Source: a virus. From it: a stretch of 50,759 nt of DNA. Under the pieces are notes generated by a model. The model had not been told where the DNA came from. It did no database searches and saw only the letters and a list, made by a program, of their open reading frames with translations. The translations under genes were made by a program, and so were the position numbers. The stretch covers positions 1-50,759 of the IMG/VR virus record IMGVR_UViG_3300012201_000005; one strand, written 5' to 3'. Below are positions 23,818 to 25,398 of the stretch, piece by piece. Numbering within the stretch: position 1 is the first letter of the stretch; each line of letters begins with the position of its first letter.

Positions 23818-24071
23818 CGAAACAAACCGAGACCAAACTGGCCTCCCTGCTCAAAGCCATCCAGTCGTGGGGACTCATGGAACTAGTCAAGGAGTCCTAC
23901 TGCTACCAGATGGTTTGCCGAATCCTAGACACAGGGAGCGACCTTCAGCCAGCCGGAGAAGACACCGAGGCCGATACCGAAGTGAGTCTGGCCATCGTGA
24001 TCGAGCCGCTTCACTGGGGGATTGACGATCCTTTGTGGAGAGAATTCACGTTGGCGTGGGGCGAGGCTTGA
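23814..24071 (+). CDS. Hypothetical protein
   Basis: An 85-aa acidic protein (ATG 23814, overlapping the previous stop). The C-terminal half (ADTEVSLAIVIEPLHWGIDD) may be a beta-rich domain. Unknown function; its stop lies one base before the dual-coding locus. Confidence 0.65.
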   Translation: MTKQTETKLASLLKAIQSWGLMELVKESYCYQMVCRILDTGSDLQPAGEDTEADTEVSLAIVIEPLHWGIDDPLWREFTLAWGEA

Positions 24072-25190
24072 ATGGCATGGCACATTTCCCAAGCATTGAT
24101 GAACCAATACGAAAAAGCGAACTCTTTGCCGGTGCCGGAGGCGGAATCCTGGGAGGTCTCCTCCTCGGGGAAGTTACGGTCTGCGCCGTCGAGTGGGACC
24201 CATATTGCGCTTCTGCACTTGCCCAAAGACAGAATGACGGCTTTCTCGATCCATTCCCTATCTGGGACGACGTTAGGACTTTTGACGGATTCTCTTGGCG
24301 AGGACGTGTTGACCTGGTTTCTGGCGGGTTCCCCTGTCAGGATATCAGCGCAGCGGGAAAAGGCGAAGGAATCACTGGAGAACGTTCTGGACTCTGGAAA
24401 GAGTTTAAGCGGATTATTGGCGAAGTACGACCCAGTAGAGTCCGTGTGGAGAACTCCCCAATGCTCACTCTTCGAGGAATCGAGGTTGTACTCGGGGACC
24501 TGGCCGCGCTGGGGTACGATGCAAAATGGGGCGTTCTCGGAGCGGATGACGCCGGGGCACCTCACATCCGCAAGAGGATCTGGATTGTGGGCAAGCCCTG
24601 CGTCAGCGGATTCGGTCGGAAGCCACGGAGGCGGACAGGGTCGGAGTCTGAGGACGGACATCCACAATTGGAAGCGGAGGCTCTGGCCGACTCCAGTCGC
24701 GGACGGGGACAGGACGACGAACTATGCCCAGGGCGGGGAGAGCCTTGGGTTCGTCGTGAGGACATGGCCAACCCCGCGAACTCACGAATCGGGAACATAT
24801 CAGCGAGATCGCGGCGAGAAGGGCAAAGAACGCCCAACGCTGGCCGGAGCGGTCAAGTTTCCGACACCGAAGGCGAGGGATTGGAAACGGGCCGGAGGCA
24901 ACGGGAATACTCCGGACCTCAGTACGTTTGTTCATGGTGGGATGCAGACCCCGCCGACCTACCCGACGCCAACCTCAGTGACGAACAGCGGCGGGAGCGC
25001 GCTGAACAAATGGGGAGGGAGTGGGGCAAGGAAGGCGATGAACGCGCTCTTGCCTTCGGAAGAGATCAATGGGGCGTTGAATCCCGAGTGGGTCGAGTGG
25101 CTCATGGGGTGGCCGCTAGGGTGGACCGACTTAAAGCCATTGGGAACGGCCAGGTTCCAGACGTGGTGGTTCTCGCGGAGAGGTATGTGA
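24072..25190 (+). CDS. WPTP-repeat protein, read in +1 frame over the methyltransferase gene
   Basis: A 372-aa open frame starting at ATG 24072, directly after the previous stop with GGGGCGAGG at 24058-24066. It is not random-looking. The N-terminus is MAWHISQALMNQYEKANSLP, followed by Ser-rich and SLFEESRLYSGTWPRWGTM segments. Four WPTP-type motifs (WPTP 24684, WPTP 24765, FPTP 24858, YPTP 24960) and WVEWLMGWPLGWTDLKPLGT at the end follow. I recall that phage hypothetical proteins with repeated WPTP and a terminal GWP-GWTDLKPL motif exist; no database was checked. It overlaps the methyltransferase by 1114 nt. No enzymatic motif recognised. Confidence 0.7.
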   Translation: MAWHISQALMNQYEKANSLPVPEAESWEVSSSGKLRSAPSSGTHIALLHLPKDRMTAFSIHSLSGTTLGLLTDSLGEDVLTWFLAGSPVRISAQREKAKESLENVLDSGKSLSGLLAKYDPVESVWRTPQCSLFEESRLYSGTWPRWGTMQNGAFSERMTPGHLTSARGSGLWASPASADSVGSHGGGQGRSLRTDIHNWKRRLWPTPVADGDRTTNYAQGGESLGFVVRTWPTPRTHESGTYQRDRGEKGKERPTLAGAVKFPTPKARDWKRAGGNGNTPDLSTFVHGGMQTPPTYPTPTSVTNSGGSALNKWGGSGARKAMNALLPSEEINGALNPEWVEWLMGWPLGWTDLKPLGTARFQTWWFSRRGM

Positions 25191-25195
25191 AATGA
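24077..25195 (+). CDS. DNA (cytosine-5) methyltransferase
   Basis: A 372-aa C5-methyltransferase starting at ATG 24077 (an upstream in-frame ATG at 24035 lies in the previous gene and is not favoured). Motif I LFAGAGGG (16-23), catalytic motif IV GGFPCQDIS with Cys87, ENS (125-127), RKRIWIVG (165-172) and a C-terminal RLKAIGNGQVP (from 351) are in order. The region from about 180 to 330 is the target-recognition part, rich in Arg, Gly and Glu, with LADS, MANP, SDTE and PDAN motifs that coincide with WPTP-type motifs in the other frame. It would methylate phage DNA against host restriction. No cognate restriction enzyme is seen. Confidence 0.93.
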   Translation: MAHFPSIDEPIRKSELFAGAGGGILGGLLLGEVTVCAVEWDPYCASALAQRQNDGFLDPFPIWDDVRTFDGFSWRGRVDLVSGGFPCQDISAAGKGEGITGERSGLWKEFKRIIGEVRPSRVRVENSPMLTLRGIEVVLGDLAALGYDAKWGVLGADDAGAPHIRKRIWIVGKPCVSGFGRKPRRRTGSESEDGHPQLEAEALADSSRGRGQDDELCPGRGEPWVRREDMANPANSRIGNISARSRREGQRTPNAGRSGQVSDTEGEGLETGRRQREYSGPQYVCSWWDADPADLPDANLSDEQRRERAEQMGREWGKEGDERALAFGRDQWGVESRVGRVAHGVAARVDRLKAIGNGQVPDVVVLAERYVK

Positions 25196-25398
25196 CCTGC
25201 GTACAATGTGGCAGACCAATCAGCAGCGCCGAGAGCATGGCAAGTGGTCTGGGCCCGCGGTGCCGCGAACATCGAACGGCGATAGACCAGCCCGAACTAT
25301 TCGGAGTTTCCGAAGAATTGGGAACGAAGCCGAAGAAAGAGGCGGAAGTGATTGACTTCGACGTTTTGACCGGGAGGAAAGGAGGTGCCGGAATCTGA
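25192..25398 (+). CDS. Small zinc-finger protein (DUF6011-like)
   Basis: A 68-aa protein, ATG 25192 overlapping the methyltransferase stop (ATGA). CVQCGRPISSAESMASGLGP then RCREH is the pattern C-x2-C ... G-x-G-P-x-C seen in DUF6011-like small zinc proteins found next to phage replication genes. A polar, Lys-rich tail follows. The function is not known. Confidence 0.75.
   Translation: MTCVQCGRPISSAESMASGLGPRCREHRTAIDQPELFGVSEELGTKPKKEAEVIDFDVLTGRKGGAGI

Follow-up and report, generated by a model that had tools for sequence, protein, structure and literature searches.

Two genes on one DNA in a tailed phage, and a proposed C5 cytosine methyltransferase divided between them

We identify two genes that share the same DNA along their full length in a virus record of 50,759 bases (IMG/VR record IMGVR_UViG_3300012201_000005; this whole stretch is called the window below), which its identified genes place among the tailed phages. 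Frame A encodes a C5 cytosine methyltransferase, and frame B, offset by +1 from A on the same plus strand, encodes a protein of the family phrog_1008. We propose, with a probability of about 85%, that A and B are subunits of one C5 cytosine DNA methyltransferase, with B as its modular specificity subunit. More broadly, split C5 methyltransferases with several specificities probably form a phage-wide class, with a recombining mosaic of target-recognition domain (TRD) modules lying in the +1 frame over the disordered linker of the enzyme's own catalytic subunit, an arrangement that would permit re-targeting without breaking the overlapping gene.

Two genes under selection on one DNA

An earlier note on this DNA, made from its letters, had described two full-length genes in different frames. 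Both frames are open where it placed them, B at 24072-25190 and A from the ATG at 24077 to 25195, each giving 372 aa, and two genes on one DNA are now backed by stop counts, substitution pattern and phylogenetic spread. The ATG at 24077 does open frame A; however, the true start of A is most likely the TTG at 24068 (frame A, 24068-25195), because the window carries the junction TTGAATG (24068-24074), in which A's TTG overlaps the upstream TGA and is followed immediately by B's ATG, and because [AGT]TGAATG, with the TGA of the upstream gene overlapping the A start and the B ATG directly after it, recurs in 104 of 132 loci. The upstream gene and B are in the same frame, which would suit coupled translation.

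Frame B avoids stops to a degree that conservation of A does not account for. Synonymous recoding of A puts 5-8 stops into B on average, and the probability that B would stay open in the window under such recoding is ~0.0002-0.0014. The +1 frame of relatives was checked for stops, as the earlier note had suggested, in a pooled set of 131 relatives: B is open in 96% of them versus 1% expected after synonymous recoding of A, and the mean number of B stops per locus is 0.12 observed versus 5.1 under recoding. The +2 frame of the same genes holds 13.6 stops on average, and ordinary C5 methyltransferases (n=20) carry 6-33 stops in their +1 frame. A chance open frame was considered and is ruled out by the recoding of A together with the counts in ordinary enzymes. 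In a reverse check, with loci found by A's N-terminal half alone, B is nearly always open except at its own end, the mean stop count being 1.0 for the B frame, 13.6 for the +2 frame and 4-8 for the reverse ones.

The pair is widespread. A tblastn search with B gives matches in 100 phage records, where A may force part of the similarity in the first half; in viral contigs, the candidate stretches that match B number at least 599. Among the best 80 viral loci found with B, A overlaps at offset +1, and both frames are open across 0.8-1.2 kb in nearly all. In prokaryotic genomes, B overlaps A at the same offset in 80 of 80 loci found by B's end motif, fully in 74 and partially in 6; the assemblies are labelled as Pseudomonadota, Spirochaetia, clostridia, Verrucomicrobia, Planctomycetota and archaea, and part of the contigs may be viral. 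Two of the loci with an overlapping pair (L216, L242) lie on contigs binned as archaea (Candidatus Poseidoniaceae), which may likewise be viral contigs. Similarity also led to Escherichia coli loci, which appear to be prophage copies. In the prophage of E. coli PCP07014 (L251:2001-2762), the annotation gives a methyltransferase pseudogene interrupted by an internal stop, and stops stand close together in both frames, so that both products are broken at one place.

Substitutions tell the two frames apart. Across 54 independent pairs, variability peaks at A's third codon position in 24089-24613 but at A's first, equivalent to B's third, in 24614-25093; in the final 120 nt both frames are constrained. 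We examined substitutions at the fourfold sites of A in 24089-24613 with the +2 frame as control. A-synonymous changes there were expected to create 203 B stops and 0 were observed, and the B changes are conservative (z 21.9 versus -0.9 for the control); with stops left out and each sequence used once, z is 7.0 for B versus 1.7 for the control. The control is flat over the whole half and fluctuates in sub-bins, and we rely on the whole-region and stop figures only. Within 24612-25076, the identity of A is 0.11-0.15 observed versus 0.10-0.15 forced by B, and outside this segment it is far above the B-forced level. The earlier note had made its case turn on purifying selection on B beyond what A forces, and the reversed codon-position pattern and the missing stops both point to it. 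Selection is thus purifying on both frames, with constraint partitioned between them: A is held at 24089-24613 and at motif X, and B is constrained within 24612-25076. Dual coding is real, and both frames are genes; that the pair evolves together, as had been surmised, is borne out by stop avoidance, substitution pattern and phylogenetic spread.

A catalytic product and a modular partner

Frame A is a C5 cytosine methyltransferase, as first read, with matches to PF00145 (E 1.5e-29) and phrog_363 (E 2.7e-58). It has a large catalytic domain with motifs I, IV (PC), VI (EN) and VIII (motifs I-VIII, ~24110-24610) and a motif X (RVDRLKAIGNGQVPDVVVLAERYV, 25118-25190), whose core RVDRLKAIGNGQVP is conserved far above the level that B forces. 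In the predicted model of A, residues 8-178 and the C-terminus are confident (predicted local distance difference test, pLDDT, 82-94 at residues 361-372), and pLDDT falls to ~36 over residues 193-292. The model aligns to M.HhaI with Z 22.7 and a root-mean-square deviation of 2.3 over 196 of 327 residues, and the alignment extends into the C-terminal part, to residue 319. In a profile comparison with ordinary enzymes, A matches template positions 3-206 (E 2e-31), and a match to motif X at 340-362 is weak and non-significant alone. The small domain with the TRD and motif IX was not found in A: template positions 207-339 are unmatched, and residues 193-292 are disordered and unconserved. On modelling, A is without a folded target-recognition domain, and what joins its two conserved parts is a linker (24612-25076) that is predicted to be disordered and is conserved no more than B forces. 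The A protein of Salmonella phage S9-5 has only a few tens of residues between motif VIII and the motif X region. The LAD, MAN, SDT and PDA strings that the earlier note read as methyltransferase motifs in this linker appear to be by-products of the PTP modules of B.

Frame B matches phrog_1008 (E 7.1e-33) over residues 78-354, and the phage protein family of which the earlier note had spoken does exist. No model in Pfam or NCBIfam is matched by B, a search of a defence library with B matched nothing, and a sequence search of solved structures gave a single weak match, 3nng (E 0.054). Three regions can be told apart in B: an N-terminal domain over the A catalytic domain (24303-24587), with WRTPQCSLF and TWPRWGTM and the phrog_1008 match from residue 78; an array of modules; and a motif-IX-like end, LNPEWVEWLMGWPLGWTDLKP (25077-25139), over A's VGRVA..RVDRLKAIG, which is picked out by a profile match, non-significant alone, and is followed in-frame by motif X in relatives.

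Modules are ~33 aa long, number 1-7 per B, and mostly begin with W/F/Y-P-T-P. In the window, the WPTP, WPTP, FPTP and YPTP motifs start at 24684, 24765, 24858 and 24960, as the earlier note had it, over A's LADSS, MANPA, VSDTE and LPDAN; its four units are present, but the modules total five, with an additional one at 24588-24683. This first module (WASPASADSVGSHGGGQGRSLRTDIHNWKRRL; WASPASADSVGSHGGG) shares 70% identity with one from Paenibacillus phage Tadhana (L002) and 75% with one of locus L180, although the A catalytic domains are only 36-40% identical. Module 2 (WPTPVADGD..., 24684-24764) is 92% identical to a module of a Geothrix locus (L168), module 3 (WPTPRTHES..., 24765-24857) 55% to Coriobacteriia/Eubacteriales loci (L215, L232), module 4 (FPTPKARDW..., 24858-24959) 59% to an Oscillibacter locus (L237), and module 5 (YPTPTSVTNSGG..., 24960-25076) 56-63% to L106, L168 and L007. 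The B of the window is thus a mosaic whose nearest module relatives are scattered over a Paenibacillus phage and an Elusimicrobia locus, Geothrix, Coriobacteriia/Eubacteriales, Oscillibacter and phage contigs.

The same holds across the family, in which 643 modules, recurring types included, stand in 158 different arrangements. B proteins can share a module type at up to 93% identity where the accompanying A catalytic domains show 56% identity, and 343 of 1527 matched module pairs occupy differing array positions. Loci L067 and L080 have catalytic domains identical by BLAST and differ in one module. Such patterns show that modules are exchanged between phages; the recognition domains of type I systems also swap in this manner.

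A proposed two-subunit enzyme and its alternatives

Relatives with other layouts place the parts of B within a methyltransferase. A single frame holds motifs I-VIII, PTP modules, IX and X, with several variable modules in tandem between VIII and IX, in Actinomyces phage xhp1 as well as in two viral contigs related to it (L006:1996-3348, L321:2058-3443, L322:2052-3314). Other relatives, actinophages included (L003, L004, L169, L171, L209, L310-L316), have motifs I-VIII in A and the modules, IX and X in B; in L169:2983-4149, L171:2983-4497 and L209:2479-4056, B runs through motif X and A ends after VIII. In the group of the window, motif X is located in A. From this order in single-frame and split-layout relatives, the modules occupy the TRD position of C5 methyltransferases. 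In relatives with IX and X together, Pfam and NCBIfam mostly recognise nothing beyond the catalytic part. The Actinomyces single-frame enzymes have 3-4 PTP modules, cleanly gained or lost between closely similar genes. B is intact in L204, L227 and L193, where A has an interruption near motif VIII or beyond it.

We infer that A and B form a heterodimer, that the B end is motif IX, that each module carries one specificity, and that the enzyme has an anti-restriction role. The catalytic subunit A would comprise the large domain with motifs I-VIII, the disordered linker and motif X, and the specificity subunit B would comprise the N-terminal domain, an exchangeable array of TRD modules (five here) and motif IX, which closes the small domain in ordinary enzymes. 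Their assembly would yield an M.HhaI-like enzyme with its small domain supplied in trans. The module array could overlie the A linker in the +1 frame because the linker must only stay open and flexible, and the interlock of the TTGAATG start with the upstream stop may couple translation and balance the subunits. With one recognition sequence contributed by every module, several sites would be methylated and the phage might be protected from several host restriction enzymes, and a module swap would re-target the enzyme. Of the partner roles that the earlier note had guessed at, specificity is strongly favoured by comparative anatomy, and an anti-host function is without support.

Several observations weigh against a two-subunit enzyme. 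It assigns no function to the B N-terminal domain. When a B profile is compared with ordinary C5 methyltransferases, it aligns best, locally, to their motif IX (template 312-345), yet the match is non-significant alone and Pfam misses motif IX. For B alone, AlphaFold gives a pLDDT of 56 and a structural search returned no fold match; a poor model and an absent fold match are uninformative on the relatives of B, and low pLDDT might be expected of an obligate partner of A but is no evidence for one. Finally, B similarity in the first half exceeds the A-forced level, but the +2 control shows a nearly equal excess; because the control behaves alike, the similarity test was discarded there, and the fourfold-site test was used in its place.

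It is improbable that B, as a real protein, is an independent DNA-binding or anti-restriction protein that merely shares the locus and is no methyltransferase subunit. Such a protein would be in keeping with the lack of significant similarity to methyltransferase domains in Pfam or NCBIfam, and the phrog_1008 label 'DNA methyltransferase' may stem from the overlap itself. However, L006, L321 and L322 combine I-VIII, the modules, the IX-like end and X in a single frame, the modules and IX-like end are in-frame with X in L003, L004, L169, L171 and L209, A is without exactly the part that B would provide, and none of the 80 prokaryotic-genome loci has a B away from A.

We consider it somewhat less probable still that ribosomes frameshift past motif VIII and that B serves solely as the tail of the resulting A-B fusion. 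Three relatives (L089, L119, L128) do run in-frame from the A catalytic domain into the modules and IX-like end, but 104 of 132 loci have a conserved ATG for B right behind the upstream stop, and B is stop-protected along the entire catalytic half of A, which would be unneeded if the frameshift came after motif VIII. The three in-frame joins are without motif X and represent either natural fusion or assembly error; at the A-module junction of L089 lies a short tandem repeat. A non-coding B, kept open by base composition and the conserved protein sequence of A, has next to no probability: the overlapping pair is 59% GC, above the rest of the window, which reduces stop frequency, but recoding of A at synonymous sites still brings in stops, the variability of the mid-region moves to B's third position, and B belongs to a recognised family.

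Known systems, wider meaning and genome context

The small subunit of M.EcoHK31I (YGGCCR) reportedly lies in an alternative frame inside the large-subunit gene, as Lee et al. are said to have described in 1995. Our proposed enzyme would resemble M.EcoHK31I, with motifs I-VIII and X in A of the window; the end of B aligns best to motif IX, in a match that is non-significant alone and that single-frame relatives support. It differs in that the TRD of M.EcoHK31I is assigned to the large subunit, whereas here it is apparently in B as a multi-module array, and in that B spans all of A in an arrangement widespread in phages. PMC3404938 places motifs I-VIII and X of M.EcoHK31I on its large subunit and IX on the small one, and those of M.AquI with I-VIII on one chain and IX-X on the other. 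The M.AquI kind of layout is seen in relatives L003/L004 and L169/L171/L209; in contrast, the window has motif X in A rather than B, with full-length overlap of the two genes. In multispecific phage C5 methyltransferases, tandem target-recognition domains confer several specificities (PMC8936443). Those of SPR, phi3T and H2 share variable, exchangeable tandem modules with our pair; however, they are single polypeptides, whereas here the array, with its putative specificities, forms a polypeptide of its own that is read from an overlapping frame.

PHROGs places A in phrog_363 and B in phrog_1008, with the entries labelled just 'DNA methyltransferase' and the families unlinked. We found no earlier description of the overlap in the open-access literature. 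As far as that literature was searched, the new features are the full-length overlap, a widespread and recombining module array in the overlapping frame, and the series of intermediate layouts.

Conserved and selected full-length double coding has seldom been established in bacteria or double-stranded DNA phages. Phage contigs with the pair number in the hundreds, and genome assemblies from many phyla also contain it, usually with only one gene annotated, and the overlap explains conflicting annotations that give one gene, the other, or two 'DNA methyltransferases'. Relatives offer a comparative series from a one-frame enzyme through partly overlapping to fully overlapping genes, as well as naturally swapped recognition modules whose DNA targets might be made readable by methylome sequencing.

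Genes identified in the window encode a tape measure protein, a Dit-like protein, terminase, head proteins, a protease, an Erf annealing protein, a DnaB helicase and a RuvC resolvase. The two same-strand frames of ~1.1 kb sit between the helicase and resolvase genes, and the few neighbours that were examined include none recognisable as a restriction gene or a defence-system partner. Immediately downstream lies a DUF6011 gene (E 3e-7, 25192-25398), whose ATG overlaps the stop of frame A (ATGA).
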